Assembly (NCBI RefSeq): GCF_015326965.1
Contig: NZ_CP017659.1
Coordinates: forward strand, 3,513,501-3,577,500
DNA: 64,000 nucleotides
Origin: Paenibacillus sp. JZ16
Lineage (GTDB): Bacteria; Bacillota; Bacilli; Paenibacillales; Paenibacillaceae
Direction of reading: 5' to 3'
Shown here: piece after piece, positions 1 through 54,294 of the stretch
Position numbering within the stretch: position 1 is the first letter of the stretch
How the letters are laid out: every line of letters starts with the position of its first letter
Made by a program: the position numbers and the translations under genes
Notes under the pieces: generated by a model
What the model was told of the DNA's origin: nothing
Databases searched by the model: none
The model's input: only the letters and a program-made list of their open reading frames with translations

Positions 1-56
1 TTACTCTTTTTGTACAAAAACGACTTCGCGTTTTTTTGGGAGAGAGGGTGGAATGC

Positions 57-30049: not shown

Positions 30050-33025
30050 TTAAACTCCTTCATCCGTCTCATTCTCCGGCGTCTGCTCGGGCTCTTCCGA
30101 AAGCGCGCTTTCGTCGGACAGCTCATACGAGACGCCATCCACAACAACCTTTTCGACTAGGGACACGTCAAGCGGCTTATCCAGCTTCACGGTAACCTGA
30201 CTTGAGTAAGTCTGGTTTTCCTGAGCGTCACCAACGCTTTCCGATGACTCCACAGCTTCACCTTCAGCAGGATCAGACGAGTCTTCCCCTTCTGCTATCC
30301 CAGTATTCGGGTCCGTTTGATTATCCGTTGATTCAATCTCTGTTCCTGATGGATCGGCTTTTGCTTCGCCTGTAGTTTCATCCGCGCATACCCGCGTTAA
30401 TTCAGGGCTGGCAGCTTCAAACAACATGCTTGCATCCTTGCCTACAATCTGTAGCTCGTCCACATTGAAATCCCGGCAAGCTGCCGGCTGTTTAAAATGG
30501 AAACTCAGCTCGGTCTTGCCCTCCTGCTCGCCTTCCTCCACTACCGTCGCCGTCAGTAATGGCTTTTCAGGGACGGTATCGGAAGAAGCCGGAGGTGCGG
30601 TAACTGGAGGGGTAGTGACCGGATTCGGATCGGCACTGCCATCCGCAGGTCCCTTGCCGTTTTGAATCATCATGAAGACAGCGCCAGCAATAACGATCAC
30701 CGCAAGCAAAGACGACGTGATTTTTACGAACCGCGAATGCTGTCGAATCCATCGCACCAACGGCGAAGCTAATTCAGCCCTAACCTTCGTATACACCGGT
30801 TTAAGGATTGGAGCGGGAGAATTGAAATACGTTTTCGCATATTCCTTATTCTTGAAGGCTTCACGATCATAGGTTTTGAAATAATCGACGATGGCGGTGG
30901 CATAAGCCGGAACAAGTCCCCGCGGTCTAACGAATACAGGTTGCTCGGCAGACCACATAATATACTGGTATACCACTTCTGCACTGTTGCCGTATCTGTG
31001 CAAATAATCAAGCAGGCCCCGATAGTCTACGGCACTGGAACGAATCTCCGTGCAAAAGGCTAGGGTAATGCTATCAAATCGGGATGGCACCACATGGTTC
31101 TGCAGCCATTTCCGCATGATTTGCTGGGTTCGTTCCCGCTCCTCGGCTGACAGATCCTCCAGCACCTCCACTCTTGCTTCTTCTCGGCTGGACCATTGGT
31201 GAAGGGCCAGCATGACCGCGGCTTTGGACCGAATCCGGGAATCAAACCGCTCTACCCAGCCCTTGAACTCCTTCGGCATTTGCAGAAAGCCGATATCCAG
31301 CAGCTGTTTCTGGCTTAATTGCTCGGGCTCCACCTCACGCAAGAGAAAAAGGTTTGCCGCATATATCAACCGGTCTGCAAATGATGTTCCGCCTTGGTAA
31401 CGACCGATTCCCTTCTGAGGATGGTGCTCCAGCGAATCCAATTGGTCCAGTACGGCGTTGACCGCTCTCACCGGATCCGAATCCTGCTTAAGCTTATCGA
31501 CAAGCTGGGCTTCGGCTAACCTGATGTAATTCTCCTGTTCCAGCAGGAGTGGGTGGTTCCGAACCCACAAGCCGATCAGGTCTACCAAGTCTGTAGGCGA
31601 CGCCGCTTGCTGCATGCGTTTTTTCATGTACGGATCAAACATCAACGCCGGCAGTCCCGGACTGGTCAGCACCCTGGCGTAGAAGGCTCGGCTTAAGGCC
31701 GGGCTGCCCTCCAGCAGGTCGTAAATCGCCTCGGTCACATCCTGACGCCGCTTCGATAAGGCGTTATTTAATGAGCGGATAAAATATTCCACAATCAGAT
31801 CATGATGCTGCCGGGGATTGATGCCGTGATAATCCCTAACAAAACCGGCAATGGCTGCATCCGGAACATGTCCGCCTTTGACAAGTTCGAATTCCTGGGC
31901 AAACAGGGTGTGGAACAGCTGATCCAGCCGTCCCTTAGAAGCAAGGGCACCTGCCGGCTTCAAATAAAGCAGCATTGCACGCAGAACGGCATGTTTATGC
32001 TCATGGTACAAGCCCTCTTGGCCTTCTTCAATCTGGAACAGCACACATAAATCATCGTAGCTGTCCAGCAAGATCCCCAGACCCGGCTCCATATCGGCAA
32101 GCATCTGCTCGGCGAAGGCAAAAAAGCGCTCGGAGCGATCCGGGTCCAATAGCGTTTCCCATGCAAAATCAAGATAAGGCTGCTCGGACCATTTCAGATC
32201 GGCATTGATAACCCTGCCGGCAGCGAGCTCAAACAAATAATCCTTCTCGATGCTGCGGTCGCTTAGACGCAGGCTGCCCTTCTCCACGAACATAAGGTGA
32301 AGTCCCTTCTTGCTCTGCGGCTCCTTGGCATAGGTTACGAATCCAAGCACCTGGCGCAGCGCATAGGGCAATCGGCCAAACAACACAAAGAGCAGCTGCT
32401 CCGCCTTCGCGGACAACTGTTCCACCGGCACATCCAGAACGATATATACTTTTTTCTTCCCGGCAGCCGCGGATATGCATGCATAGAGCAGCTGCTTGAA
32501 TACCTTCTCGTCGATCCCAAGCTCCTGCAATAAGGCTGGCGCCCTCTTATAGGAAATGGCGGCTTGAGAATCGGCCTGAACCGGAATGGCAGGAAGCTGC
32601 GGCAGATCAACGCCTTCTTCAATATCGTAGTGATCGGCAAAGGAAGCCTGCAGCCAGGACTGGTAAGCCGAATGCTCATCTTCAAGGAAACCGTCGGGAA
32701 TGACATAGTGATGCGTAAAAAAGGCACTGCGAAGTCCCGTAAAATCCGCAGGCTGAAACACGCTTCGCCCCAGCACCGTTTCTCCGGTTTCCGTATGGAA
32801 CAGATGAAGGGCGGCCGGATAAGCCGCCGCTTCCCTCTCGCTTCGTGCCGTCAGCTCGGCAGGAGCCTCGTATTGGCAAAAGGGATGCAGCACCTTTTTG
32901 ATAAAGGAGGCCTCCAAGCCGGACGAACGGGCCACCGTATCAAAGCCTTCAGCTGAACGGAATATGCCCCGCCGCTCCCGCGTGTACATTTGCTGCTGTA
33001 TGGTTCGGGATGGGAAATCCGGCAC
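30050..33025 (-). CDS. GAP1-like (GTPase-associated protein 1) membrane protein
   Basis: A 991-aa protein. Residues ~1-740 are a soluble alpha/beta and helical region. Its N-terminus (FPSRTIQQQMYTRERRGIF, FHTETGETVLGRSVF, YVIPDGFL) resembles the GAP1 N-terminal domain found next to double-GTPase genes. One transmembrane helix (SSLLAVIVIAGAVFMMI) lies at ~768-788. It is followed by a ~200-residue external tail that is Pro/Thr- then Asp/Glu-rich and ends in a beta segment. The GTG start overlaps the GTPase stop (TAGTG), so the two are coupled. Last gene of the operon; the GAP1 assignment is by remembered sequence pattern. Confidence 0.7.
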   Translation of the reverse strand: MPDFPSRTIQQQMYTRERRGIFRSAEGFDTVARSSGLEASFIKKVLHPFCQYEAPAELTARSEREAAAYPAALHLFHTETGETVLGRSVFQPADFTGLRSAFFTHHYVIPDGFLEDEHSAYQSWLQASFADHYDIEEGVDLPQLPAIPVQADSQAAISYKRAPALLQELGIDEKVFKQLLYACISAAAGKKKVYIVLDVPVEQLSAKAEQLLFVLFGRLPYALRQVLGFVTYAKEPQSKKGLHLMFVEKGSLRLSDRSIEKDYLFELAAGRVINADLKWSEQPYLDFAWETLLDPDRSERFFAFAEQMLADMEPGLGILLDSYDDLCVLFQIEEGQEGLYHEHKHAVLRAMLLYLKPAGALASKGRLDQLFHTLFAQEFELVKGGHVPDAAIAGFVRDYHGINPRQHHDLIVEYFIRSLNNALSKRRQDVTEAIYDLLEGSPALSRAFYARVLTSPGLPALMFDPYMKKRMQQAASPTDLVDLIGLWVRNHPLLLEQENYIRLAEAQLVDKLKQDSDPVRAVNAVLDQLDSLEHHPQKGIGRYQGGTSFADRLIYAANLFLLREVEPEQLSQKQLLDIGFLQMPKEFKGWVERFDSRIRSKAAVMLALHQWSSREEARVEVLEDLSAEERERTQQIMRKWLQNHVVPSRFDSITLAFCTEIRSSAVDYRGLLDYLHRYGNSAEVVYQYIMWSAEQPVFVRPRGLVPAYATAIVDYFKTYDREAFKNKEYAKTYFNSPAPILKPVYTKVRAELASPLVRWIRQHSRFVKITSSLLAVIVIAGAVFMMIQNGKGPADGSADPNPVTTPPVTAPPASSDTVPEKPLLTATVVEEGEQEGKTELSFHFKQPAACRDFNVDELQIVGKDASMLFEAASPELTRVCADETTGEAKADPSGTEIESTDNQTDPNTGIAEGEDSSDPAEGEAVESSESVGDAQENQTYSSQVTVKLDKPLDVSLVEKVVVDGVSYELSDESALSEEPEQTPENETDEGV

Positions 33026-34284: not shown

Positions 34285-34358
34285 CTTTCGTACCTCCCTC
34301 TGAACCCTATGAATTACACACTGACGCGTTCAACGTGGTTGCTGTGTGTTCGATTTCT

Positions 34359-35000
34359 CTATCTATAAACGAGCTCATACCGTTGTCCATACTTCTTGCC
34401 ATCCGTAAAAAACAAGCGAATATAATCGTTCTTGCCCACCTCGATCGCAGGCAATTCATTGCGCCCTGCCGCAAAATCCGTAACGAAAGGGTACAAGATG
34501 CCGTCTTCCTTGTTAACCGGATAAGCCCCCTGCTTCTTTACGTAACATAAAACGTCCTTGGGTACCGGCACTTCCGCCGTCACCTGAATTTCAATCGTCT
34601 TATAGGGTTGCAGCCAGCGGCTCTTTTCGCGGATGGAGTATGTCAGCATGGCTTTGCCGGTGCTGAACTGAATGCTGTTCGCTTCATCCGGCTGCCTGAT
34701 TAAGGCCATCTCTCCGTCTTCGGAAGACATGGCATACACCGTGTACATAATCTGACCAATTCCGTCCACCCGATCCCGATACCCATTGTTCGCCTTGTAC
34801 TCGTCTCGGGTATACAGACGCAGGCTGCCAGGCTCCAAAGCTCCAGCGGTCGGACCAAATCCATCATCCATCTCGCGGTGAATGTATACCGCCTGAAGAT
34901 CTGGCGGCCAGTTCCAGCGGAGCGTACAGAAACCATCTTCCAACTGATAGCTTAATCCCTGAATGACCCATTCTCCGGGCTCCGCATTTTTAAAACGCAT
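34359..35000 (-). CDS. Beta-sandwich hypothetical protein of the GTPase/tubulin operon
   Basis: A 213-aa soluble protein predicted to be mostly beta. It looks like two immunoglobulin/FnIII-like repeats: EWVIQGLSYQLEDGFCTLRW...VYIHREMDD at the N-terminus and TYSIREKSRWLQPYKTIEIQVTAE after it. There are no catalytic motifs, signal peptide or helix. It lies between the vWA and GTPase genes with short gaps, so it is co-transcribed. I do not recognise a family; an adaptor role is a guess. Confidence 0.65.
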   Translation of the reverse strand: MRFKNAEPGEWVIQGLSYQLEDGFCTLRWNWPPDLQAVYIHREMDDGFGPTAGALEPGSLRLYTRDEYKANNGYRDRVDGIGQIMYTVYAMSSEDGEMALIRQPDEANSIQFSTGKAMLTYSIREKSRWLQPYKTIEIQVTAEVPVPKDVLCYVKKQGAYPVNKEDGILYPFVTDFAAGRNELPAIEVGKNDYIRLFFTDGKKYGQRYELVYR

Positions 35001-35017
35001 ATCGAACGCCCCCTGCT

Positions 35018-36283
35018 TTAAAATCCTCGGCTTGTTGAATCATTCGGCCGTTGTCCTCGTCCCGTTCGGCCCGGCCGCTGCTCATTACGAATGATCCTGC
35101 TGTTCTCCTTAACCGGGATCACCAACGTAAACAAGGCGATGACTCCTGCGAGAATGAAGCAGGCCAGCATACGAATGGAGGCATCCCCCACTTCTACCCC
35201 GGATAGGCCATATTCCAGAACAACGCCTGCGAGCACGCCGGATACCGCTCCGCCGATGCTGAAGCTGAGCGCGAGATGGCGGTTATCAAACACAATCCCG
35301 AGGGCAAGGCCCATGGCAGCGCCAATAAGCAGCATCGCAGCGATTCTTACAATCTGATAATAAACGCTATCTTCCATAACGCCCGTACGTTTCGTCAACA
35401 GGGAACGATCCCCGACATCGTCATAGATTTTCTGGAAAACAAAAGACAAATCTGCCGCGTTCTGCACGTCGTAATATTGCCCGCCCGTTTCGGCGGCAAT
35501 CGTCTGAAGCAGTTGGGCACCGTCCGGGTTAACAAGGCTGAGGCCAATCGTATTCACCGCGATTTGCTGCTGCTTGTAGTCCGCAAGCACACGCGCATGA
35601 TCCGTTTCGCTAAAGCCGTCCGACAGCATAATGACCATGGCGCTTCGAGCGGCATCATGGCTCTCTTGGATATGCGTCATGGTATCCTCCAGCGCGAGAC
35701 TGATGTCCGTGCCACCGTCGGTCGTTGCCAAACCGTCGATTTCCGCGATGATCTCATCCTTGGCTTCTTGGTTCTTCACACGCGTAAACGGCTGCAGTAA
35801 CGTTGTCGCATGATCAAACACCATCACCGATACACGGTTATCCTCGTCCATGCGTTTGATCAGATTTTTGGCCGCCGTATATCGGTCCTGATTCGGGTCC
35901 GTATCTTTCATGCTGCCTGAATTATCAATGATCAGCACGATGTCCTTCACGGGCTTGGCGCTGCCCGGGTTCAACTGATACACCCACTCAAACAGCATAC
36001 CTAGCAGGAACAGCGCCACCAAAGTGGATGGAATCAGCAGCTTCCATGATGTGCCTGTATATCGCTGTCTCCATGAGCTCCCATTCAAACGAGGGGAGAT
36101 CAGTTCTGCGATTAAGCAGGCCAATCCGATGCACAAGGCCAAAATTCCGAAATAGATCCCTGTAACCACGATGACGGGAAGCCCTGTCCCCCACTGGCGA
36201 AGCCAAAATTCCCCAATGGCAAATCCGATTCCCCCACCGACTAGACTAAACAGCAGCAGGAGAGGGTTTATTTTTCGTTGCAC
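35018..36283 (-). CDS. Membrane-anchored von Willebrand factor A protein
   Basis: A 421-aa protein. Three N-terminal transmembrane helices (~8-28, 35-62, 80-102) precede a vWA domain (~113-295) with an intact MIDAS, DNSGSMKDTD plus downstream Thr (TDGGTDIS) and Asp (LSDGFSETD). Three C-terminal helices follow (~310-330, 335-358, 363-385). Basic, Arg-rich ends face the cytoplasm. vWA domains mediate metal-dependent protein contacts. It starts at GTG 36283. The TGG-GGG-A at 36186-36193 is read normally in frame here, a useful contrast to the three frameshifted genes. Confidence 0.85.
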   Translation of the reverse strand: MQRKINPLLLLFSLVGGGIGFAIGEFWLRQWGTGLPVIVVTGIYFGILALCIGLACLIAELISPRLNGSSWRQRYTGTSWKLLIPSTLVALFLLGMLFEWVYQLNPGSAKPVKDIVLIIDNSGSMKDTDPNQDRYTAAKNLIKRMDEDNRVSVMVFDHATTLLQPFTRVKNQEAKDEIIAEIDGLATTDGGTDISLALEDTMTHIQESHDAARSAMVIMLSDGFSETDHARVLADYKQQQIAVNTIGLSLVNPDGAQLLQTIAAETGGQYYDVQNAADLSFVFQKIYDDVGDRSLLTKRTGVMEDSVYYQIVRIAAMLLIGAAMGLALGIVFDNRHLALSFSIGGAVSGVLAGVVLEYGLSGVEVGDASIRMLACFILAGVIALFTLVIPVKENSRIIRNEQRPGRTGRGQRPNDSTSRGF

Positions 36284-36320
36284 AATACACGCCTACTCTC
36301 TGTATCAGAATCTAAGAACG

Positions 36321-38705
36321 CTAGCGCAGCTCGGGAAGTTGCGCCGGTTCCATTCCATGAAATTCATAACCGTTTGCCGTATAGGTCTCGTAGTAGGTTC
36401 TGCCATTCCGGTAGTACATCAGATCCTCCAAGTGGAAACCTCCCATCAGGTTCAGCTTCTCAACCCCGCTTGAGCGCTTCTCATGCACGATGCCAAGCTT
36501 GTACACCCGTAAAGCTTCATCGGCGTGAATCGCGTAACGGACGAATTCGCTGTCGGCATCGCCGAAGAAATATTTCTCCTCGTATCGATGCTCCTGCGTA
36601 TAGTCAAGCAGTCTGACCAACGTAACGGAGTTCTCCTCCAGCATCCGGTATAGCACCTTAAACAGATCTTCCTTGGCAAGCACCTGCTTGTTATTGTAGT
36701 CGATGGTTACGTTCGCCCGCCGCAGCAGTTCTTCCTCGAAGGTCTGCACGAACGGCTCTGCCGTCAATAGATCCCTCAAACAGACCCGGATCATGTTCGA
36801 CAGGATCGGTTCGATCCCTTCATGCGTAACGATGGAGAGATTGCCGACATACCGTTCCTCGAAGAATACGCCCTGGCCGCGCTTGCTCTCCAATTCCAGC
36901 ATCAGCTCTTCCGTGACCAGGCCATAATACTCCATCAGGTTCTGGCCGATATAATCATCTGCGGTACGGATGCTCGACTTGGCCGCTTCCAGCAATTCCG
37001 CTTCGAGCTGGTCCAGCATGTTCGCCTGCTGCTTGTACTGACGGTAAATCCGTTCGAGCTCCGTCTCATACAATCTGTAAAGCTCTAGCTCCGTTTCCAG
37101 CTGCAAAAGCTCATATTTGCGTCGATAAACCTCGCCCACGAAATATCGAATGAAATGGCGCACATTCTGTTTATCCCGAAAAGGAAGCTTCTTGAATGGC
37201 TGACTTTCCACGCTTTCCTCATAATAGCGGTTGAGTCCGTCCTGCTCGCTCTTCAGGAGGCTGCCGAGATCCCGGATTCGGGAACGAACCGCTTCAAGCA
37301 GTATCCCCTCTCCCGCCTTGTCGCTCGTCCACTTCACGATTTGATAACAACCGATTTGCGGGTGATCCGCCAAGGTTCGACGAAGCGCACGATGAAGCTC
37401 CTCAGAAGTACTCATATCTCTAAGTCTCTTTTGGACCTCCAGCTCATAATTGCTGTGAAAAAATTGCCGGCAGCCATCCCCGAACAATGCCTCTTCTGCT
37501 TCACGAATGTTCATCCGCTTCAGCCCGGCATAACTGACGGGGTGTGACATCATACCCTTTAGCCCGTCCAGATGCTCCGGGTTTGGCAGCATCCGGTCCG
37601 CTCTTGCCGATACGGCCTCCGGATTTAGACCAAAGTAGGTCAGGCATTCATGAACCTCCGGTTCGGGCCCGCCCTTCATGCGAAGGAGAAGTCCGCGGCA
37701 TAGATGATAGAGCACCGTTAGCGCAATCGGCTCGTTCGGCCTCTTTACTCGGGCAAAGCCTGCGGAGACAAAGCCTTGGCGGCCGGATTCGGTCATGATA
37801 TTGCTTTTGAACGACGTATTGTTGTATATGCCCCGGACTCCGTCATAGGTTTCATCCTTCTGCTTCCGGTTCTTAAGCAAACCCAGATGGCAGATGATAT
37901 CGTAGATATCCTGCATCCCGGCGTAACCCGATATGCCGCGTTCATTCTTGTCGGATAGTACATAAACGAGATCAAACAACGGCGAGGCCGGGTGGACGAC
38001 CGGAATGGTCAGCCCATCCTCCGTGACCTGCAGCGGCGCGGAGAAGTTGTATTCCCGGCTCTGCATCAGCTCCAGCTCCCGCAGGAAGGCAACGCCCACA
38101 GAGCTCGCATAACCATAGGAATCAATCTGATCCCTTTCATTAATGAGCGCATACATATCCATTTGCACCGACTTGAATGACTGCTGGAAGATGGATGCGG
38201 CCAGTAATGAAATTTCCGGTATAAACACATTGAACGGGTCATCGACCCGTGTAATGACAGACAGATGAATCCGGTCAAAGGATGAATAGCTGCGTCCATA
38301 ATCTGAAATATGGTGGCTCAGCTTCCGAATCGCTTTATTCAACCCGGCCAGGTGATGCGGGTCCCGATAGAAGTCTTGGTACAGCTCCTTGCGTGCGGAC
38401 TTGGATGAGCCGTCTGACGCTGGCAATTGCAGATGATACCGATGAAGGCGACCGGAGGATTCGGAGCCTTTCGGCTCCCGATTCCCGCTCCGGTCCGTTC
38501 CCACATGAAAATAAACGACGCTTGCGCTGTTATCCCATTTGCGGTCATGGATTTCCATGATCGGTTCGATGGCGGACGCTGTCTTGTCGCCAATGAACAA
38601 GTATACCTCCGGGTAGTGGATGCTGCTCTGATCATCCTCCATCAAGGTAAGCTGCTCTTCCGACTTGGCATAGCCGGCAGCATACTGGCGAAGAATCTCC
38701 CTCAT
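36321..38705 (-). CDS. Large hypothetical protein of the tubulin/GTPase operon
   Basis: A 794-aa soluble protein. The first ~330 residues are alpha/beta with patterns reminiscent of the neighbouring tubulin-like protein (YLFIGDKTASAI..., IHLSVITRVDDPFNVFIPEISLLAASIFQQ, FARVKRPNEPIALTVLYHLCRGLL), but no GGxTGxG nucleotide loop is visible. The rest is helical with heptad-rich stretches (~540-620). It starts three bases after the upstream gene and is co-transcribed. I do not recognise a family. A degenerate tubulin-like partner is a possibility, not a conclusion. Confidence 0.7.
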   Translation of the reverse strand: MREILRQYAAGYAKSEEQLTLMEDDQSSIHYPEVYLFIGDKTASAIEPIMEIHDRKWDNSASVVYFHVGTDRSGNREPKGSESSGRLHRYHLQLPASDGSSKSARKELYQDFYRDPHHLAGLNKAIRKLSHHISDYGRSYSSFDRIHLSVITRVDDPFNVFIPEISLLAASIFQQSFKSVQMDMYALINERDQIDSYGYASSVGVAFLRELELMQSREYNFSAPLQVTEDGLTIPVVHPASPLFDLVYVLSDKNERGISGYAGMQDIYDIICHLGLLKNRKQKDETYDGVRGIYNNTSFKSNIMTESGRQGFVSAGFARVKRPNEPIALTVLYHLCRGLLLRMKGGPEPEVHECLTYFGLNPEAVSARADRMLPNPEHLDGLKGMMSHPVSYAGLKRMNIREAEEALFGDGCRQFFHSNYELEVQKRLRDMSTSEELHRALRRTLADHPQIGCYQIVKWTSDKAGEGILLEAVRSRIRDLGSLLKSEQDGLNRYYEESVESQPFKKLPFRDKQNVRHFIRYFVGEVYRRKYELLQLETELELYRLYETELERIYRQYKQQANMLDQLEAELLEAAKSSIRTADDYIGQNLMEYYGLVTEELMLELESKRGQGVFFEERYVGNLSIVTHEGIEPILSNMIRVCLRDLLTAEPFVQTFEEELLRRANVTIDYNNKQVLAKEDLFKVLYRMLEENSVTLVRLLDYTQEHRYEEKYFFGDADSEFVRYAIHADEALRVYKLGIVHEKRSSGVEKLNLMGGFHLEDLMYYRNGRTYYETYTANGYEFHGMEPAQLPELR

Positions 38706-38708
38706 CGT

Positions 38709-39596
38709 CTATTTCAACCTTCTTCGGATGTCGTTTAATTTCGAAGATACCTGTCTGTAGAACTGGTATCGCTCCTCACCGTCCGCAAGCTCCACCTTCT
38801 CGTATTCGAGCCGGTCGCGCGTTTCCAGGAACCGCTCGGCCAATTCCTCCAGCTTCGTGAGCAGCGGCGTAATGTCCTCGGAAGCGGTCAGCTCCTGATC
38901 GCGGCGGGAGGATTTGCGAAGCAGCGTGCTTCGGCTTTTCTCATCCAGCTGACGGAAGTGCTTGTAAACTTCATACTCCACGTCGTTCACGCTTTTCAGC
39001 AGGTTGGCAAACGGCTCCCAGGAATCTTCCTCCGGATCGCGATCATAAACGAAGAGCGCACCCTTCTTGGTGATCGTCCCGGTGTACAACGCCTCGATGA
39101 ATTGATCAAGCCATTTCTCTTCATTCTGATTGTCGCTGATCAAGAGCTCGAATTCCGTGATTTTGGCCGCGATGGCAGCATATTTCTTCAGCTCTTCCCG
39201 CACGATGCGGATCATTTCCGGCGAACGGATCAGATTCTCCTTGGCCATATCCTCGTTGATGCTGTTGAAAATATCCTTAGAGCCAACCCGTTCCAGCCCC
39301 TCGTTCAAGAGCCGCTTCAGCTCGGTCCATGCCCGCTTCACTTCCCCAAGATTAGGCTTGGGACTATCCAACTGCAAATCATAAGCGCGAAGCAGCTCGT
39401 TCAGATCAAATGGCTTCGTAAACACGACCGCATAGCGGCTGCTCGTATTCTGGTCAACGTCCTTCTGGATGATGACTTTAAACTCTAGCGCCTGGTTAAA
39501 TTCAGCGCGTACCCGGGCGTTATAATCCTGAACCCGCGGGTTGACGTAGGTATCCCCCAGGATTTCTCGGGAATCGGTGATGGCAGGTACGTCCAA
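38709..39596 (-). CDS. C-terminal part of the tubulin-like protein, out of frame
   Basis: A 295-residue helical frame rich in Glu/Lys/Leu with coiled-coil character (FNQALEFKVIIQKDVDQNTSS, ELKRLLNEGLERVG, LTKLEELAERFLETRDRLEYEKVEL). Its formal start, TTG 39596, lacks a ribosome binding site and lies inside the upstream gene, overlapping by 112 bases. A -1 shift at the G5 tract 39554-39558 joins PEKSWG directly to DTYVNPRVQDYNARVR. The natural product is thus probably one 1129-aa tubulin-like protein with a helical tail. Confidence 0.7.
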   Translation of the reverse strand: MDVPAITDSREILGDTYVNPRVQDYNARVRAEFNQALEFKVIIQKDVDQNTSSRYAVVFTKPFDLNELLRAYDLQLDSPKPNLGEVKRAWTELKRLLNEGLERVGSKDIFNSINEDMAKENLIRSPEMIRIVREELKKYAAIAAKITEFELLISDNQNEEKWLDQFIEALYTGTITKKGALFVYDRDPEEDSWEPFANLLKSVNDVEYEVYKHFRQLDEKSRSTLLRKSSRRDQELTASEDITPLLTKLEELAERFLETRDRLEYEKVELADGEERYQFYRQVSSKLNDIRRRLK

Positions 39597-42097
39597 TTGT
39601 TGCGGTCCGTCTGAACCAAGTGACGCCCGACGCCTTCCTTGTCCATGATCGTGCGTTCGTAGCTTTCCTCATAAACCTTTAGCGGCGTATAGACGAACAG
39701 CGGCACGCCGTTCTTCGTATTCAACCAGAAAATCCGGTTCTTCACTTCGCTCTCCTTCACGGTGAAGTGAGACTTCCCGACCGAATTGTTCTGATAATTG
39801 CGAATCCCCTTCAGAATGCTTGGTGCCTGTACCGGCACGGACACGAAGCCCCAGGAAGGGAAGTACAGATTGCCTGCGCTGTTGCTCAGATGGAAGACCG
39901 GCACGGCTTCGTCATCCAGCTTGCTGGCGATGTTGCGCTCGACGAATTTTTCGATGGAATCCTCCTGCCCGAATTTCATGACGAGGAAATCCTCCATCGA
40001 GCGGGTGATGAGATCGCCGAATTTATCGGTAAGAAACTCCGAAATGGATCTGACGATATCGATCTCCTGCTCCCGCGTCCAACGATTGGCATGGCTCAGC
40101 AGCTCCTGCGCGAAATCGCGGATGAGATCGTCCACATCCTTCTGATCCATGATTTTGTTGATCACGTCGGAAATGTCGGGCACGCTGACCAGGTTCCAGT
40201 AATACGTTTTATTCCCTTTATGGTCCTGCTGCTCTTCCCCGTTGACGAGAATGTCGCCGTTCTTGGCGAAAATCGAATTCAATGCATTCAGAATTTCCGT
40301 ATACACGCTGTAAATCCGGTTATTCTCCTGATTCAGCAGATCGTATAAATCCTCATAGAATTCAATCATCTGCTCGGTGCGTTCCACATCGGCTTCCAGC
40401 CAATATTCGTTGATTTTGGCTTCAATATAGATATTCTTCTTCTTATCCTTGGAGACAAAAGCGCTCTTCGCATCGCCCAGGCGTTCGATGGCCTGTTCCC
40501 TGGCCGACTCGATGTCACGGGGAATGCGGGTCAGATTCTCGCGCAGCGCCTCGATGTAGGACAGCAGCATCTTCAGCAGGCTGAAGCCCTTCTCCGTATA
40601 GATCAACCGGGACACATAGAACGGTCCTTGCTGCGGATGCAGGAACATGCGGCGGATTTGATCGCTGAACTGAGCCACGATCTCGCCCGGCAGCTGCTTC
40701 TTCGCTTTGATATACTCCTCGCGGGCTCTTGCCAGGAAATTCTGCTCCAGCTCCGTGTCCATATTGATGACCTGGTTCTTCACCACGTTCGCGTAGCTGA
40801 GCCGTTCGCTATTCTGGTACCCGGGGAGCGGCTCCGGCACGCGGGACTCGAAGTTCTTCGTCATCGAGTCCAGGTCGATGCCCAGCTTGCTTGCGAATTT
40901 CTCGACGTCCTCCTGGCTTGGCGCCTTCTCGAACATGGTTTGCATTTTGCCGAAAACGCGGTACGCGAGATAAGTGGTCATCTCTTCAATCGGTAGAACA
41001 GCTGAAGATGCGCCGATAATGTTGTAGTCGTAATTGGCAGGGTACGCCTTGTTCATCTGCGCGATATTGGTGCGGATGTTGCTAATGTAGTCATGGATCG
41101 CAAACTCTTCGCCGGACTGTTTTTCCTCGCTGGCCATGAAGTTTGTGATGTTCTCAGCGGTAACGTTCATGCAATAATCATAGGCGTTCTCCAGCAGCTT
41201 GCCTTCCGTATTCGTAGCGGAAATCAGATGGCACAGATTAAACGGAGGCAATGGAGAGTTCACGTTCAGGATATTGCCGTACTGCTGTTTGAAACGCTCG
41301 CCTCTGGCATCCACGTTCATCCAGTAATCGAGCTCTTTGAGTGCGGCGTAACCGTTCTTCTTGATGTATTCGCGCGTATGCTCGCTCAAGCTTTTGTTCG
41401 CCAGATTAATATCCGGCGTAAACAGATAGCCAAGGGTGTTCACGCGGTCAATGCCGGCAGAGCCGTGGTCGCGTTCGATAATGCCGCGGACGATATAGGC
41501 GATGTCCAAGAAGCAGCCGCTGCCCGTACCGCCGGACAGCCCCGTCAGCAGGAAAACCATCAGCTTTTTGTTCGTGCCGACCGACAGCGTCTTGATCTTC
41601 TTGTCGATCGCCTGCACCACTTGCGTAATCTTCGTGAACAGGAGCAAACGGCCCGCTTGGCGTACGCCTGCTGCCCCGTTCATGCCATCGGTAATGCTCA
41701 GTTCTGGCGACAGCCAATCTGTAATGTACGGCTCCAGGATGCTGCGGTTTTGGAGGAGGCCTCCAATCTCGGCATTGGAGAGAAGCACGAATTCATTGAT
41801 CGGATCAAGCCCGATGCCTTTATAACGTTTATTCTTATCCTGCTCGTTGGTCTCAAAAGCCAGAAACTCCACATTATCCGGCTTGTCCATTCTCTTCTTG
41901 GACAACGGATCCTCCGGCAGCTTGAACCGGCGGTTAATCTGATATTTCAAGCGCAGCAGCGCATCGATCCCCGTCCCTCCAAGTCCAATGATAAGGATCG
42001 GATTGTCGATGGTATCGACCCGTATTTTCTCGCTGACAATCCCGCCTCCAAGTGAAACGTCAAGCTGTTGTATATGTTCTCTTACTACCGGTTTCAT
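39485..42097 (-). CDS. Tubulin/FtsZ-superfamily GTPase-like protein
   Basis: An 870-residue frame. The N-terminal ~450 residues carry tubulin-superfamily signatures: a first glycine loop, PILIIGLGGTGIDALLRLKYQI, and the tubulin/FtsZ motif in LLTGLSGGTGSGCFLDIAYIV (GG.TGSG). This is the 'tubulin-like' (Tubulin_2) type, not FtsZ. Long helical regions follow (~450-700). The final ~15 residues after PEKSW are a frameshifted readthrough. AGGAGGGG precedes the ATG. GTP binding and polymerisation are family expectations, untested here. Confidence 0.85.
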   Translation of the reverse strand: MKPVVREHIQQLDVSLGGGIVSEKIRVDTIDNPILIIGLGGTGIDALLRLKYQINRRFKLPEDPLSKKRMDKPDNVEFLAFETNEQDKNKRYKGIGLDPINEFVLLSNAEIGGLLQNRSILEPYITDWLSPELSITDGMNGAAGVRQAGRLLLFTKITQVVQAIDKKIKTLSVGTNKKLMVFLLTGLSGGTGSGCFLDIAYIVRGIIERDHGSAGIDRVNTLGYLFTPDINLANKSLSEHTREYIKKNGYAALKELDYWMNVDARGERFKQQYGNILNVNSPLPPFNLCHLISATNTEGKLLENAYDYCMNVTAENITNFMASEEKQSGEEFAIHDYISNIRTNIAQMNKAYPANYDYNIIGASSAVLPIEEMTTYLAYRVFGKMQTMFEKAPSQEDVEKFASKLGIDLDSMTKNFESRVPEPLPGYQNSERLSYANVVKNQVINMDTELEQNFLARAREEYIKAKKQLPGEIVAQFSDQIRRMFLHPQQGPFYVSRLIYTEKGFSLLKMLLSYIEALRENLTRIPRDIESAREQAIERLGDAKSAFVSKDKKKNIYIEAKINEYWLEADVERTEQMIEFYEDLYDLLNQENNRIYSVYTEILNALNSIFAKNGDILVNGEEQQDHKGNKTYYWNLVSVPDISDVINKIMDQKDVDDLIRDFAQELLSHANRWTREQEIDIVRSISEFLTDKFGDLITRSMEDFLVMKFGQEDSIEKFVERNIASKLDDEAVPVFHLSNSAGNLYFPSWGFVSVPVQAPSILKGIRNYQNNSVGKSHFTVKESEVKNRIFWLNTKNGVPLFVYTPLKVYEESYERTIMDKEGVGRHLVQTDRNNWTYLPSPIPEKSWGIPTSTRGFRIITPGYALNLTRR

Positions 42098-42130
42098 AAC
42101 TTCCCCTCCTGATAGATCATGGCTTTAAGA

Positions 42131-42193
42131 GGTTGTTCAAAAAGTCCGCTTTTGATAAGAAGTGAGTCAGGAAGCAGCCCTTTTTGAACACGC
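42131..42193. repeat. Inverted repeat between vWA and tubulin-like genes
   Basis: GTTGTTCAAAAAG(T)CC and GC(C)CTTTTTGAACAC face each other across ~35 bases, immediately after the vWA stop. It could attenuate or process the operon transcript, or be a remnant of a dispersed repeat. Confidence 0.5.
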
Positions 42194-42196
42194 GCT

Positions 42197-43984
42197 TTAA
42201 GCCAAATATTCAAATAGTATCGTTTTGTCCGCCTGCTGCAGGGAAACTCTCAGCCGGTCTCCGTTCTTAAGCTCCGTGCCATTCGATGCATCCAGCGCGC
42301 GGCCGGATTTCTCAACCACGGCTGAAGAATTGTTTTTAAGTATAATGCGGTCGTTCTTGCCCGGCATGAATAAGATCTTCTCGGTCTCCTTCAGCTCGGG
42401 AGCAAGCTGCAGAAGCTGATGCAGATTGAACTTCCCTTTGAACGAAGTCAGCTTCTTGTATTGCGGAAACGTCTTCTCGCCCGTGTTCTCGTCTCTGATC
42501 TCGATCACGATCTGGCCGACAAAGCCTTTATTCGCTTTCTTAATCGCGCCGAGTATGAAATATGCAGCCGCTCCAACAAGGAGCAGCGCCGCGATGCCAA
42601 TGATTACGGGCCATAATGGAAAAGGTTTCGCATCCTCGCCCGCAGTCATCTCCTTCCCGTCGCTTCCGGAGCCCGTGGCTGCTGCCTTTGCGCTTATCTT
42701 CACCGGCGCACTTTCGCGGTAGAAGCTCTGCTCCTCCGCCCGTACCTTCAGCTCGTAGTCGTGCTTTTGCGGAATCTTGTAACTCCCTTCAAAGCTGCCG
42801 CCTTTATTCTCAAGCTCGACCTCTGACTCGTCCCCGGTGTCCAGATCCTTAACCAACAGCTTGGCCGTCATATTGCCATACTGCTCCTGGTCCTGCAGCT
42901 TCTGTCCATTGCTGACGAGATATGCCTTAATATCGATCGTATCTCCTGCCTTTACCTTTGAAGGTGGCGGAGGATCCATGGTCAGCTCCAGGTCGTAGTT
43001 GAATACGAGGTTAATGTCGATTTTGTCTTTCGATACGCCTTTCACCTGCAGCTTCCAATCGCCTTGCTGCGGCTTCAGCAGCTTGAGCAGCGAGTAGGAA
43101 TTGGAAGTAGATCGCAGGACATTGCCCGAAGGAATAGTCTGCTCAGCGCCGGCAGGATCGACCAGCTTCACGTCGACCGGGCTTGAGGACATAATGGAAA
43201 TGTTCGCCTCCAGCACGTTCGCATTCGGCACACGAACCGTAACTTCCTGATAGCTTCCGTTGCCGGTAATGGATTGTACCGGAACGATCTTAAGCTGCTG
43301 GTGGCTGGCAAAAATCTCGCTTAATATTTGCGGAAGGTCATCCGCCGAACTGGTAGTAAAGGACTTGCCCCCCGTTTGGTTTGCCAATTCATCCAACGTT
43401 TCTTTATTCAGCTTCCCGTCGGCATTCAGCCCGATCGTATAAATCGGGATGCCGCTCCCCTTGGCCTCCTTGACGGCTTGCTCTAACTGATCTGACGCTT
43501 CTTGGCTCGTCTTGCCTGTGTTTGGATCCAGATCATTGTTACCGTCGGCCAAAACAACGATCATCGGCGCATGCGCCGGGTCCATTCCCTGCTTCAGCAC
43601 TTTCACGGCTTCATCAAGGCCTACGGACATATCCGTGTACGGACCGCGATCCAGCTGATCGATAAACTCCTTCAGCGCGGTCTTGTCCGCCTCCGACTGA
43701 ATTTCAAGCAGTGCTTTCTCCCGCTGAATCCGGTCAGTATAGGATACGACGCCGACCTTGTCGCCGGTGGTGGCCAGCATGTCGATAAACATCTTCATCG
43801 CTTCGCTGCTGATCCTCTCCGGATCACTGTTTTTCATGGAGTTGCTGGCATCCATCACCAGTACGGCATCAATCTTGGAGCCTTGCGAGGCAGCCATTGC
43901 CTGAGGCATGGTTCCTCCGCTCCAGGTCAGGGTCAGCAGCACCGCTGCCATCAAAGAGAGAAGCCATTTATTTTTACGTAACAT
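42197..43984 (-). CDS. Secreted/membrane vWA protein with cytoplasmic beta-rich (FHA-like) tail
   Basis: A 595-aa protein, first gene of the minus operon. A Sec signal peptide (LLSLMAAVLLTLTWSGG, cleaved near QAMAAS) is followed by a vWA domain (~37-225) with MIDAS DASNSM. An extracellular beta region spans ~230-460. One transmembrane helix (PVIIGIAALLLVGAAAYFILG) lies at ~478-500. A cytoplasmic ~95-residue beta domain follows (GKNDRIILKNNSSAVVEKSG..., resembling FHA). The topology would let it pass an outside signal to the cytosolic GTPase/tubulin proteins; that is inference. Confidence 0.83.
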   Translation of the reverse strand: MLRKNKWLLSLMAAVLLTLTWSGGTMPQAMAASQGSKIDAVLVMDASNSMKNSDPERISSEAMKMFIDMLATTGDKVGVVSYTDRIQREKALLEIQSEADKTALKEFIDQLDRGPYTDMSVGLDEAVKVLKQGMDPAHAPMIVVLADGNNDLDPNTGKTSQEASDQLEQAVKEAKGSGIPIYTIGLNADGKLNKETLDELANQTGGKSFTTSSADDLPQILSEIFASHQQLKIVPVQSITGNGSYQEVTVRVPNANVLEANISIMSSSPVDVKLVDPAGAEQTIPSGNVLRSTSNSYSLLKLLKPQQGDWKLQVKGVSKDKIDINLVFNYDLELTMDPPPPSKVKAGDTIDIKAYLVSNGQKLQDQEQYGNMTAKLLVKDLDTGDESEVELENKGGSFEGSYKIPQKHDYELKVRAEEQSFYRESAPVKISAKAAATGSGSDGKEMTAGEDAKPFPLWPVIIGIAALLLVGAAAYFILGAIKKANKGFVGQIVIEIRDENTGEKTFPQYKKLTSFKGKFNLHQLLQLAPELKETEKILFMPGKNDRIILKNNSSAVVEKSGRALDASNGTELKNGDRLRVSLQQADKTILFEYLA

Positions 43985-44298
43985 CGAATTACTCCTTCAT
44001 CCATTTAGTCTAGCATCAGGTGGATGCCTCGGTTCGTTTGTCAGACCGTTAGTCTAACTGTAGGCAATAAGTCTTAAAATTACATGAAAGAAAGCTTAAA
44101 AACATACCGGGAACATCCATTTCTCTGGTGTATTTATATAGAAAATACCATGCTAATCACTAAAATATACCAGCACTATGTCCATATGATATAATTATAC
44201 CTGCCAAAGTTCAACATAATCAGTCGTACCACCCGAACTTAGGACACAAGCCTCACCCGCCATTTTCGAACAAATACGATGCCGAAAGGAATAGATAT
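43985..44298. other. Divergent promoter region of the tubulin/vWA system
   Basis: No gene. It holds the promoters for the two divergent operons. An inverted repeat, CTGGTGTATTT (44125-44135) and AAATATACCAG (44164-44174-ish), encloses a third half-site AAAATACCA (44142-44150). TATAAT at 44190-44195 is a plausible -10 for the plus-strand operon, with no good -35, so an activator may be needed. Confidence 0.5.
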
Positions 44299-44451
44299 AT
44301 GATTACATACGGATGTCTCGGGATTTTGTTTCTTTTTGTCATCATCAAGATCACGGCCTACTTCAAGCGTAAGAAGAACGCCCCGACACCGGAGCAGCTG
44401 CATCAGACTCTGCTTGAAGTTGCCAACTCACAGAGGGAACAGCATGGATAA
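44299..44451 (+). CDS. 50-aa single-span membrane protein
   Basis: A small frame, MITYGCLGILFLFVIIKITA then YFKRKKNAPTPEQL and a polar tail ending REQHG. One transmembrane helix of ~18 residues is followed by a basic stop-transfer (KRKK), so the C-terminus faces the cytosol. GAAAGGAA lies nine bases upstream of the ATG. The stop overlaps the start of the next gene by eight bases, so translation is coupled. It resembles no family I know. It is easily missed because of its size. Confidence 0.65.
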   Translation: MITYGCLGILFLFVIIKITAYFKRKKNAPTPEQLHQTLLEVANSQREQHG

Positions 44452-45379
44452 GAAAAAACCCGTACAACTTCGCCCCTATAGTAAAACGAGATATGTCTAC
44501 CAAAAGTTAAGGGTTTGCAAACATTGCCACCATTTCACGATTCTTTGGGAAGACAGCTGCGCTCACTGTAAACGCAACGCCCTTGTTCCCGTTATGGAAC
44601 TTGCAGAGAAAATGGCCAAGCGTTCCATGCAGAGTGACCGACTTCTCTTCTATATAATAGGGCTCTCTGCCGTGCTTCTTAGTCAGACCTTCTTGCAGAT
44701 CGCGATCTCCTTTGCTTGTATGGTGGTCCTGCTTGTATGGTTATGGCTGATCCAGCGGCGAGTGCTGCATTCCGAGACCCTGCACGCTCTGGACAAGCTT
44801 ATAAGAAGTCAGCGAAAACAGATTCTTGAAGGCCTTGACCTGAACAAAGCGACGGCTTCTGCCGCCATCAAGGAAGATGCCCAGCTAGGGTATGAAATCG
44901 TCAGGGAAATTGCCTTTTTGGTCCGAAATGACCGCATCCGTCTGCAGCAGATCGTTCTCCTTCAAAGCTTCAGCCTGCGCAAGGATATGGAGCTTGAGCT
45001 TGAGCCGCTGCTGCTGGATGAGTTTGATCCGGACTTAGCCGCCTATATCGGTGAAATCGCCAAAATTAAACGCGAGTTGATTAACAGCAAAGCCATCCAA
45101 TACCTGCTCGACCATGAATCCAACATTTTGCGGATGGAGCAAGGCAGGCAGATTATGATCGACGCCGCCGGGGCAGCGGTACGGAAGAAAAAATACATCG
45201 ATACCTTCCCTGATTTCATTAGCCGCTATGCGGATGGATTGCCGAGATATCGCTTCCTCCGCTTGTATCAGATCGTACGCCGCAATCCCGGCTTGTCGTG
45301 GAACGGCCTGCGGGACCGGGTGTCGGCCATTTATAATGAACACTACCGCTCGGACCCTGATTTTCAAAAATGGGATTAG
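44444..45379 (+). CDS. Zinc-ribbon, two-span membrane protein of the divergent operon
   Basis: A 311-aa protein. A four-cysteine ribbon (CKHC near residue 22 and CAHC near residue 39) is followed by two hydrophobic helices at ~66-105 (LLFYIIGLSAVLLSQTFLQI, SFACMVVLLVWLWLIQRR). The remaining ~200 residues are a helical cytosolic domain. The zinc ribbon echoes that of the GTPase encoded on the other strand. ATG 44444 has AGAGGG upstream. Not a family I recognise. Confidence 0.75.
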   Translation: MDKKKPVQLRPYSKTRYVYQKLRVCKHCHHFTILWEDSCAHCKRNALVPVMELAEKMAKRSMQSDRLLFYIIGLSAVLLSQTFLQIAISFACMVVLLVWLWLIQRRVLHSETLHALDKLIRSQRKQILEGLDLNKATASAAIKEDAQLGYEIVREIAFLVRNDRIRLQQIVLLQSFSLRKDMELELEPLLLDEFDPDLAAYIGEIAKIKRELINSKAIQYLLDHESNILRMEQGRQIMIDAAGAAVRKKKYIDTFPDFISRYADGLPRYRFLRLYQIVRRNPGLSWNGLRDRVSAIYNEHYRSDPDFQKWD

Positions 45380-45394
45380 AGGGGCTATACCGTT

Positions 45395-47317
45395 ATGACG
45401 ATGAAAAACACGCTAACCCTGCGTAATTTGTATCTTTTTTTATGTATAGTCCTTCTGCTGCTGATCGGATATAAGGGAATTCATATCTATCAGAAAATCG
45501 AATCGATGGCGCAAGCAGAGCTATTGTATGCTCAGAAGAAGCTCGTTCAGGCAGAAGAATGGTATCAAAAAGCGCGAAATAATCGCTCCCTTCTATATAA
45601 AGAAGAGCTGCTTGCCTCAAGACTGCAAGAGCTTGAACCCGTTACTTCCATGAAGCAGAGCCTTTCCTCGCTTGATCATCGATTGAGCCGGGTCGGGGAA
45701 GCAGGCGATTTTTCCGGCTTTATGAACGTGTATGCCGAATTGCTTGACGCGGAGCTGAAACTTGCCGGGCAACAAGGGGCTTATGCTTCCTACTACGATG
45801 AAATTGCTGCGTTCTACGGAATCCCCGACGATGTGAAACGGATATTCCTGCAGTTCATTGGTTTGTTTAACCGTCAGGCCGATGAACTGGTTGAAGAGCA
45901 AAAGTATGACGACAACAGCTTCAAATGGAATTTGCTCCGTATTCCCGATTCATTCTACGGCGGGGAGAAGCAGAAGAATGACAAGCTGCTCCGTCTGTTC
46001 CAGCGTTATGACGAAATGATTCTAACCCGTCTGGCAGGAGCCGGACAGTATACCGACATGTTGAATTGGTCGCAGTCTATGAGCTCCGAATATGCCAGCC
46101 GATCACTGCCGGCTGCCTGGTTGAACGGCAAGACCGATGAACTTGTGTATACCATGCTGCAAAGGGATGTCCAGCGAGAGCGGCCCTCCGATTTTGCTTC
46201 GCACGCCATGGGGTACAGTGAGTACCTGGAACGAAACGAGCGGAAGAACGCGGAAATCATGGACTATATTCAGAATCAGATCAATCGGTGGATTGCAGCT
46301 GCTGATGGAATGGTGCAAGATCAGAACTACGAGGAAGCGATAGCTCTTTATGATGCGTTGTCGGGATACCAGGATATGAGCGGTAAACAACAAGCTGCCG
46401 AATTGGCCTGGACGATCCACGATCCGATTCGTTTGTTTCAAGCGGCGGGTCTCAAAGGCAGCTTCAGCTACGTAAGCGGAGGCGGGAATCTCTTTGGAGG
46501 ATTGGCCTATGCCATTGGAGTCGATGAGGGAAATATCATCTATTTAGCGGTCTTGAAAGCCGATGAAACGGTGCAATTATTCCAAAACCATGATTACCCG
46601 TCCGACATCGCCATCCAACAGGTTTCAGTTGAGGAATCGCTTAGCACCGCTAAGAATCCGGTCATCCTTGTGGAGGGCGACGCAGGGACCGGACTGGTAT
46701 TGTATTCAGGGTATGAAGCCAGAGATGCCAATCTGACGCTGCTGTTCCAGTTCACGGCCGAAGGCTACCATGCCCAGCCGGATAAGTCTTTGCTGGTCAC
46801 CAATCTGGAAGGAGCAAGCCCCGACGAGATCGCCATCTTCGAGCGTCAGGGAGACCAATACGGATTCACAGGATATCAGGTTCATTATACCGACATCGAT
46901 ATCGCTAATATCGAGAAGTATCCGAATGAGAAGGTTCGCTTCTCTGTCCATATCCTGGAGGGTGGCTATGGCGAAGTCGTTGCAGAACGCGATGGATACC
47001 ATGTCATTTTAAGAGGAGACCTGGATTTCCCTGCGGGAAGCGCGACGCTAATCGGTACGTTCAATGGCGAGTATCAGCAGCTGGAGATCCCGGGAAGCCA
47101 GAGTTCCATTATTCCGGACCCTGCTGATCAGGAGACCGAGCAGGTTGATGGACACAATGGAGACGTTATAGATGAAACCGAGAATCCAAGCGACGCCGTC
47201 ACTACAGAGGATATCAATCCAGATGATGTTCAACAAGAACATAACGGAAGTAGTGACAGCACCGTATCCGGTCAGATCACGCAGGTACCTGTCATTCAGG
47301 TAGAATCGATTGAGTAA
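45395..47317 (+). CDS. Large membrane-anchored hypothetical protein
   Basis: A 640-aa protein. An N-terminal signal anchor (LYLFLCIVLLLLIGYKGIHI, ~10-30) is followed by a helical, TPR-like region to ~320 (AQAELLYAQKKLVQAEEWYQKARN; YEEAIALYDALSGYQDMSGKQQAAELAW). A beta region at ~350-560 resembles FG-GAP/WD-like repeats (GGLAYAIGVDEGNIIYLAVLKADETVQLF), and an acidic disordered tail ends the protein. Most of it should be extracellular. It lies 15 bases after the zinc-ribbon gene and is the last gene of the plus operon. Function unknown. Confidence 0.75.
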   Translation: MTMKNTLTLRNLYLFLCIVLLLLIGYKGIHIYQKIESMAQAELLYAQKKLVQAEEWYQKARNNRSLLYKEELLASRLQELEPVTSMKQSLSSLDHRLSRVGEAGDFSGFMNVYAELLDAELKLAGQQGAYASYYDEIAAFYGIPDDVKRIFLQFIGLFNRQADELVEEQKYDDNSFKWNLLRIPDSFYGGEKQKNDKLLRLFQRYDEMILTRLAGAGQYTDMLNWSQSMSSEYASRSLPAAWLNGKTDELVYTMLQRDVQRERPSDFASHAMGYSEYLERNERKNAEIMDYIQNQINRWIAAADGMVQDQNYEEAIALYDALSGYQDMSGKQQAAELAWTIHDPIRLFQAAGLKGSFSYVSGGGNLFGGLAYAIGVDEGNIIYLAVLKADETVQLFQNHDYPSDIAIQQVSVEESLSTAKNPVILVEGDAGTGLVLYSGYEARDANLTLLFQFTAEGYHAQPDKSLLVTNLEGASPDEIAIFERQGDQYGFTGYQVHYTDIDIANIEKYPNEKVRFSVHILEGGYGEVVAERDGYHVILRGDLDFPAGSATLIGTFNGEYQQLEIPGSQSSIIPDPADQETEQVDGHNGDVIDETENPSDAVTTEDINPDDVQQEHNGSSDSTVSGQITQVPVIQVESIE

Positions 47318-53609: not shown

Positions 53610-53834
53610 AGTATGATTCCTCCGTTCGATTTCCCTATAATAGTAGGCGGAAATAGAACACGGCAGCATCTGTGCGGTATCAGGAAAGAAGAATGATTTA
53701 TTCAATTATCAACGTTCAAAAATCCAGCATGATATAGGCTGCTAAGCTGAACAGACATGAATGCACTCTTCTTCCACCGCGCTGCCCTGTTCTAAATCGC
53801 ACATTCATGTTTTGTATTAGTTAAGAAGAAGCAC

Positions 53835-54017
53835 CTGCGGATCCGTTGTAAGAACGGTCGCCCATTCCTTTTCCGTGATTCGCTTACGGTTGGTGCATAA
53901 CCGAGAGGTCCCCGCCGAATAATCCGAACACCTCTACCTCGTCAACTTGCGTTCTGCCGTTTGGTTATCCCTATCGTAGCAATAACCAATCCCCGCGCAG
54001 GTACAAGCTCTGGCGCT
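53835..54017 (-). ncRNA. glmS ribozyme (GlcN6P-responsive self-cleaving riboswitch)
   Basis: On the minus strand the ribozyme begins at AGCGCCAGAGCTTGTACC and contains the conserved core GTTGACGAGGTAGAGG, then TTCGGCGGGGACCTC. It ends in a P4-like stem, ACCGTT...AACGGAT. Self-cleavage is expected just before GCGCC, between 54017 and 54016. Glucosamine-6-phosphate acts as cofactor, and cleavage destabilises the glmS message. It lies ~230 bases ahead of the glmS start. Confidence 0.93.
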
Positions 54018-54260
54018 TATGAAGCTTGAAGTAACCTCACAATCCTCGCTTTCTATTCTTGAATGACATCCTTTATTATATTCATGCTATATCACTTTGG
54101 CAACTCGGCTGTTTCCTAGGTGCTCCAAGCCCTGCGTATAATTAACCCCATGAATGACATCGAATGGCCTACCCTCTCAAGCGATGCCGTAATTCACACT
54201 CTTTGCTGACAGGACAGGAGGTGTTGCGCTTTCATTGACTGGCTTCATTGAAAAGCAGCA

Positions 54261-54294
54261 GGCCAGTGAACCGGATCCGCATAGTTCACTGGCC
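54261..54294. terminator. Terminator of glmM
   Basis: Perfect 11-bp stem GGCCAGTGAAC / GTTCACTGGCC; on the minus strand it is followed by TGCTGCTTTTC. Confidence 0.75.

Follow-up and report, generated by a model that had tools for sequence, protein, structure and literature searches.

A locus of ten genes at positions 30050–47317 of a 64,000-nucleotide stretch from Paenibacillus sp. JZ16 (the window; contig NZ_CP017659.1, positions 3,513,501 to 3,577,500) almost certainly belongs to the firmicute family of GAP1-N2/DO-GTPase/tubulin systems. In this locus, a tubulin-like protein with conserved GTP loops (B) is encoded next to a protein (D) that, according to its structural model, seems to be a second tubulin fold without GTP loops. 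Taking the family identity jointly with the first three steps of the mechanism described below, we consider it a real possibility, somewhat short of an even chance, that the locus encodes a membrane-attached, GTP-driven tubulin-like assembly under cell-surface control.

The open reading frame (ORF) list and the Pfam matches gave ten genes in two divergent, tightly packed groups, as an earlier reading made from the letters alone (the sequence-only reading) had described: A, B, D, E, F, G, and H in this order on the minus strand, and I, J, and K on the plus strand. The parts list of that reading was also largely right according to Pfam, with matches to Tubulin_2, two von Willebrand factor A (vWA) domains, DO-GTPase2, and GAP1-N2/M. 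The comparison covered 53 sequences, namely the window and 52 loci picked because they carry D, Tubulin_2, or GAP1-N2. The order A-B-D-E-F-G-H was found in 51 of the 53, from two families; this is a count among carriers, since the loci were picked for one of these three markers. The same order was found in all 32 of the first loci, all picked as D carriers. The results indicate that the genes travel together, and show that they co-occur beyond this genome, a point for which a neighbourhood survey had been proposed. Counts out of 50 given below leave out L053 (a low-quality genome) and L079 and L080 (not the system).

Tubulin-like protein B and its putative partner D

B (38709–42097, minus strand) is a member of the FtsZl1/Tubulin_2 group, matching Tubulin_2 in Pfam with an E-value of 1.7e-77 and 261.5 bits (cut-off 27). 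The GTP loops GGTGSG and GLGGTG are present in 48/50 B sequences, and the two misses (L048 and L063) are shortened frames. The tubulin-superfamily protein with a GG.TGSG loop named in the sequence-only reading was thus correctly recognized, but its gene does not end at 39485 and continues to 38709. In the window, B is split into an 870-residue frame (39485–42097) and an out-of-frame remainder running from 38709 to about 39556 (~280 codons). The frame loss adjoins a short G run near 39556, beyond which coding continues in the other frame to 38709, and its position coincides with the junction of the highly conserved B residues 1–850 and a more variable tail. In most relatives B is a single ORF, of exactly 1129 residues in 25 of 32 loci, 1134–1152 residues in five, and shortened in two. 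Public data also contain intact copies that are almost identical, such as P0121 of 1129 residues, which is 100% identical over 97% of the 870-residue window query; its record is labelled Yersinia pestis and likely represents a mislabelled or contaminated Paenibacillus contig.

The segment 38709–39596, considered as a separate gene C, was rejected because in relatives it forms the final part of the tubulin gene. A programmed frameshift is unlikely, since the ORFs of the relatives read straight through. The break in the window copy is either an assembly error or a recent real loss. The B frame is also shortened in L048, L053, and L063, which makes sequencing errors a fair suspicion.

D (36321–38705, minus strand; 794 residues) had been listed as a protein of unknown kind. 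Its size was confirmed, but the model gives it the whole tubulin fold, with a long helical stretch at about residues 345–700 inside the fold and the tubulin C-terminal domain following it. The modelled fold is that of 2btq, 3zid, and other tubulin structures, at an identity of ~10% or less. The GTP-loop motifs were found in 0/50 D sequences, two of which are fragments (L044 and L063). The nearest named relative of D is from Paenibacillus lautus (93%). P0002 and other relatives of D are called "transcription initiation factor TFIID" at NCBI; the modelled fold contradicts this label.

Further tubulin genes were also seen among the sampled genomes. At L080:6616-10217 (genome G067), two adjacent genes of the tubulin family (549 and 501 residues), both over the Pfam Tubulin cut-off, form a different tubulin pair, lying near cobW and DsbH-like genes; a scan of eight proteins there revealed neither vWA nor GAP1. 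Genome G412 has two nearby Tubulin_2 matches over the cut-off.

GTPase, predicted surface proteins and divergent arm

The GTPase G (33025–34284, minus strand; 419 residues) matches DO-GTPase2 just above the cut-off (29.5 bits compared with 27; Pfam). Its GxxxxGKS (Walker A), DxAGE, and xKSD motifs are present in 50/50 sequences and two CxxC motifs in 49/50, in line with its description as a zinc-ribbon GTPase; the zinc ribbon is N-terminal, and DxAGE supplies the Walker B glutamate. H (30050–33025, minus strand; 991 residues) contains GAP1-N2 at residues 9–146 (1.7e-48, 164.6 bits) and GAP1-M at residues 165–268 (1.8e-25, 89.5 bits; cut-offs 24), followed by one span at residues 769–787 by hydropathy and an acidic, highly polar C-terminal tail; it is therefore the GAP1-like single-span protein that had been predicted. 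The start of H overlaps the end of the G gene in 39 of 45 loci, a count made without L053, L079, L080, L048, L063, L043, L044, and the window. F (34359–35000, minus strand; 213 residues) is a soluble protein present in 51/51 system loci. It appears FNIII-like by eye only: no credible Pfam or FNIII match was found in 27 members (best E 0.031), and no PDB match was found.

A (42197–43984, minus strand; 595 residues; Pfam VWA 7.4e-17) consists of a vWA domain at residues 39–221 with a metal-ion-dependent adhesion site (MIDAS), galactose-binding-like and MG2-like matches, and a span at residues 460–478 by hydropathy. At E-values up to 0.1, GBD_Hemicentin was matched by 22/22 A members and MG2 by 15/22, the window copy being below the curated cut-offs; among the matches listed there was no YtkA match, the weak MG2-like and GBD_Hemicentin-like matches standing in its place. 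A PDB search with A returned vWA chains only. The vWA domain of A is predicted to lie outside and the tail in the cytosol. The single span and the outward vWA domain agree with the sequence-only reading, but the FHA-like tail that it assigned to A was not borne out, as no FHA match was among the Pfam matches listed. E (35018–36283, minus strand; Pfam VWA 3e-20) has the six helices claimed for it, according to hydropathy, with helices 3 and 4 flanking the vWA domain, which, judging from the helix number and charges, is probably outside. The DxSxS pattern occurs in 50/50 A and 50/50 E sequences, and the MIDAS positions D, S, S, T, and D are invariant in the alignments of 22 A and 21 E members, so that the metal-site residues of both are intact, as had been stated.

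The divergent arm begins with I (44299–44451, plus strand), a single-span protein of 50 residues by hydropathy, detected in 50/51 system loci, several with weak scores. J (44444–45379, plus strand; 311 residues) is zinc-ribbon-like with two spans by hydropathy; it was detected in 51/51 system loci, and two CxxC motifs are present in 48/50. Its start is most likely the ATG at 44444, overlapping the stop of I, rather than 44336. K (45395–47317, plus strand; 640 residues) is N-terminally anchored and was detected in 45/51 system loci. Of its proposed TPR/FG-GAP-like character, a weak TPR signal in Pfam was recovered but no FG-GAP match was among those listed.

The A–I intergenic region, 314 bases long in the window, contains a shared promoter region on both strands (44186–44214; coordinates read by hand). 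Toward A, on the minus strand, lies TTGAAC-17-TATCAT, and toward I, on the plus strand, an extended -10 element, TGATATAAT, at 44187–44195; these -10 elements have two bases in common (44190–44191), suggesting a bidirectional promoter. TTGANN-16..18-TATCAT was found in 31/50 regions compared with a shuffled mean of 0.14 and a maximum of 2, and the core ATTATATCATA in 31/50 compared with 0; two-base blocks were shuffled 200 times to give this background. The alignments had been viewed before the pattern was picked, and common descent of the regions partly explains its conservation. The 31 regions comprise 29/29 of the same genus (the window included) and two more from the same family, L074 and L075; TTGANN-16..18-TATCAT is absent from 16 other-family loci and from L076–L078, among which L078 keeps the core alone. 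Generic SigA patterns scored in 0 to 1 of 50 regions because the -35 and -10 elements deviate from the strict consensus. Sites for SigW, SigB, SigD, and the sporulation sigma factors were rejected as conserved features on pattern counts in the 50 regions: strict SigW-like sites occurred in 0/50, a looser extracytoplasmic function (ECF) pattern in 2 and 1 of 50 (1.0 shuffled), SigE and SigH in 0/50, SigF/G in 1/50, and SigK-like sites in 3 regions toward A and in 7 toward I (4.3 shuffled).

Distribution, inheritance and tempo

D was found in 35 of 60 relatives (the own genome included) and in 32 of the 37 within the genus; G024 and G029, two of the 34 relatives with D, lie on short contigs and are not among the loci compared. 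In the same genus, G025 (71% complete) is without D and GAP1-N2 and has Tubulin_2. Four further members with an estimated completeness of 100% (G002, G006, G021, and G030) had no D, GAP1-N2, or Tubulin_2 over the cut-off, an absence that covers these three only, and G021 gave a weak Tubulin_2 match. In a sample of the order, GAP1-N2 was present in 77/149 genomes and Tubulin_2 in 78/149. GAP1-N2 and a strong Tubulin_2 match were found together in 76 genomes (counted by eye). In 75 of these both lie on a single contig, about 8–12 kb apart, and in G119 they are on two contigs. GAP1-N2 occurs alone in G172, and a weaker Tubulin_2 match alone in G067 and G168. In a sample of the phylum, GAP1-N2 was found in 6/249 genomes, five of which belong to this genus or family, and Tubulin_2 in 10/249, eight over the cut-off.

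The system is chromosomal, and its inheritance looks mostly vertical. The B tree, built without L053, requires 11 genus-label changes, where the least possible number is 10 and the shuffled mean 20.5. No B homologs were found in plasmid, phage, and viral collections, in which the viral scan consisted of two peptide patterns; these collections possibly lack records close to the window genome. Flanks are common to groups of 12, 7, 4, and fewer loci, and many loci, the window included, share none. Operon gaps of at least 350 bases contained no recurring separate effector ORF; the gap ORFs, named by eye, are GNAT-like in L062 and L064 and oxidoreductase-like in L076.

The median identities to the window (41–49 rows each) were 84% for G, 83% for B, 60% for A, 53% for E and F, 49% for D, 43% for J, 38% for H, 36% for I, and 30% for K (41 rows), the lowest of the set. 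The ratios of nonsynonymous to synonymous substitution (Ka/Ks) in four pairs were 0.006–0.027 for G, 0.021–0.045 for B, 0.077–0.145 for D, 0.065–0.146 for E, 0.055–0.157 for F, 0.059–0.101 for A, 0.066–0.214 for J, 0.093–0.230 for H, and 0.147–0.300 for K; the values for I (0.025 to 0.728) come from 50 residues, too short to weigh. Within H, Ka was 0.27 for the GAP1 tail compared with 0.04 for GAP1-N2 and GAP1-M in one pair. That B and G are strongly constrained and the surface parts less so fits a fixed engine whose surface contacts adapt, and equally a sensor-driven defence.

Outside the locus, the window contains SIS/GATase (glmS-like), phosphoglucomutase-family, and YbbR genes at 51777–57317, a glmS ribozyme at 53828–54028 upstream of the glmS-like gene, and a c-di-AMP (ydaO/yuaA) riboswitch at 11301–11446 (70.2 bits). 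The ORFs at 58334–59784 are presumably sigW/rsiW.

Proposed mechanism, rivals and known systems

The mechanism starts from what is kept: the GTP loops of B, the motifs of G, the metal-site residues of the vWA domains, and a promoter region common to both arms. B in its GTP form and D would co-assemble, D acting as a non-hydrolysing partner. Together with the helical arms of B and D, the membrane spans of A, E, H, I, J, and K would hold the assembly under the membrane. A, E, and H would relay a ligand or strain signal from the two outward vWA domains to the DO-GTPase, the latter gating assembly or disassembly. We put forward these three steps as plausible, with slightly less than even confidence. 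The outcome in a fourth step, remodelling or monitoring of the envelope, is more doubtful. Similarly, the full picture of a two-subunit tubulin in which D has kept the fold and lost the loops beside a near-invariant B, forming a membrane-tethered polymer that is switched by GTPase and GAP1, controlled by outward vWA domains, and stably inherited in Paenibacillus and Brevibacillus rather than mobile, is tentative and may well fail in one of its parts. If the pseudo-tubulin reading is true, bacteria would possess a pair of an active and a dead tubulin, comparable in principle to alpha/beta-tubulin, that is coupled to a GTPase switch and to sensors at the surface.

Several observations weigh against this proposal. 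The window copy of B may not give the full protein, since its last quarter is out of frame, and FtsZl1 proteins may not form filaments, according to a passage of Makarova and Koonin 2010 (PMC2875224). The window D has no Tubulin_2 match in Pfam; among ten D relatives, hand-picked and some of them for a tubulin-like name or a precomputed Tubulin_2 match, two exceeded the Tubulin_2 cut-off and two had no such match at all. Alignment of D with B by hhalign was weak (probability 14%, E 0.0019; 1.7% and 0.03 in other alignments). When the proteins were split, the N-terminal parts matched with an E-value of 0.0082, no better than the meaningless match of the D C-terminal part with the B N-terminal part (0.0079). 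No colinear alignment was obtained for the two C-terminal parts. Loose loop-like patterns do occur anywhere in D (GxTG in 18/50 and a relaxed T1 pattern in 3/50). As for inheritance, two genomes that belong to a single genus (g33) fall apart in the B tree with support.

Kaur et al. 2020 (PMC7159879) proposed, in the passages concerned, a conflict system for this family from wider neighbourhoods, and the locus could accordingly be an anti-phage or conflict system in which GTPase and GAP1 set a threshold, FNIII and vWA domains sense the invader, and the tubulins are assembly-forming effectors that trap it or shut the cell down. The GAP1 tail or K, with its low identity, could be the variable component, and both the absence of the system from some close relatives and the differing flanks of many loci speak for this reading. 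On the other hand, the layout is constant across two families, the B tree is near taxonomy, no separate effector gene recurs in the gaps, the plasmid, phage, and viral collections gave no B homolog within the scope stated above, and Ka/Ks is 0.30 or less for every gene of more than 200 residues in the four pairs. A PADLOC 2.0.0 scan of ten locus proteins (I left out) gave a best E-value of 0.011, a lack of match with which defence is still compatible, and among ten neighbouring proteins scanned there was one match (DrmC models, best 1.1e-15), to a protein that is a phospholipase D by Pfam. The fixed order and the near-taxonomic tubulin tree point away from defence for this lineage, and we regard this explanation as rather unlikely. 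The locus bears on whether the predicted GAP1-N2/tubulin systems are defence systems, and could be testable soon since the system sits in cultivable Paenibacillus and Brevibacillus.

Alternatively, the locus could encode a relay for envelope stress or mechanosensing whose tubulin-like proteins form no filaments and serve as static scaffolds or as switches that bind GTP. Such a relay would account for the two MIDAS vWA proteins, the many spans, and the higher conservation of the cytosolic tubulin and GTPase relative to the surface parts. It would also agree with the doubt over FtsZl1 polymerization cited above and with the membrane-stress role predicted for DO-GTPases in a section of PMC11237479. 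We nevertheless consider it unlikely: the D model keeps the whole tubulin fold, and the promoter is of the sigma-A type, without SigW-like sites and with ECF patterns at the shuffled level, although a vegetative promoter is still compatible with a stress role. A developmental part in sporulation, swarming, or pattern-forming colonies appears improbable. The correlation of the family with a multicellular habit, noted in the passages of PMC7159879 concerned, and the public names of proteins near B, which come from Paenibacillus, Brevibacillus, and Aneurinibacillus, speak for it, but the sporulation-sigma patterns are not conserved and the system is missing from some genomes of the same genus.

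Returning to the assembly of B and D, comparison with published predictions places the locus among known themes. The gene combination is not new, having been predicted in passages of PMC7159879 and PMC2875224; the claim that it is not described functionally stands only insofar as no experiments on GAP1-N2/tubulin systems were found in the literature searched, among the matches listed. A haloarchaeal paper (PMC10067837), taken up as a lead, was dropped, as the part seen concerns MoxR-vWA modules only. Scans of the locus proteins with NCBIfam gave just generic vWA models below the cut-off and chance-level matches, and PDB sequence searches with B, D, F, G, and K gave E-values of 0.029 or worse only. 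L079 (genome G172) shares GAP1-N2, a GTPase, and an F-like protein of 803 residues with our locus, whereas no tubulin, vWA, D, or I-J-K was detected in it, and it is probably another GAP1-N2 theme.

The firmicute tubulin theme in the relevant passages of Kaur et al. 2020 has GAP1-N2 neighbourhoods with two coiled-coil tubulin genes, two vWA genes, of which one is multi-helix and outward and the other is fused to YtkA, an FNIII component, and a polar GAP1 tail. The present locus is alike in its GAP1-N2, zinc-ribbon DO-GTPase, two tubulin and two vWA genes, and polar GAP1 tail. Those systems are described there with mobile neighbourhoods, variable components, and a fast-evolving FNIII, whereas here 51 of the 53 sequences keep the order, the genes seem to be inherited mostly vertically, and the operon gaps hold no recurring separate effector gene. 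Makarova and Koonin 2010 described, in the part seen, FtsZl1-vWA-GTPase operons with a predicted role in membrane remodelling; B belongs to this FtsZl1 family and likewise has vWA and GTPase neighbours. The C-terminal part of FtsZl1 is without tubulin similarity in that account, whereas the partner D is modelled with a tubulin C-terminal domain. In the portion seen of a 2023 FtsZ/tubulin survey (PMC9871819), Tubulin_2 proteins are a divergent side group. D resembles BtubAB, the alpha/beta-tubulin heterodimers, and CetZ in its modelled fold, and differs from them in its identity of ~10% or less, its lack of GTP-loop motifs, and about 350 extra helical residues. The apparent loop loss in one tubulin, the I-J-K arm, and the shared promoter belong to this locus and are not mentioned in the main-text passages of Kaur et al. 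2020. Within the literature searched, what is new here is the seemingly loop-less tubulin partner, the constant divergent arm with its overlapping promoter, and signs that within this taxonomic order the system is inherited more in the manner of cell machinery.

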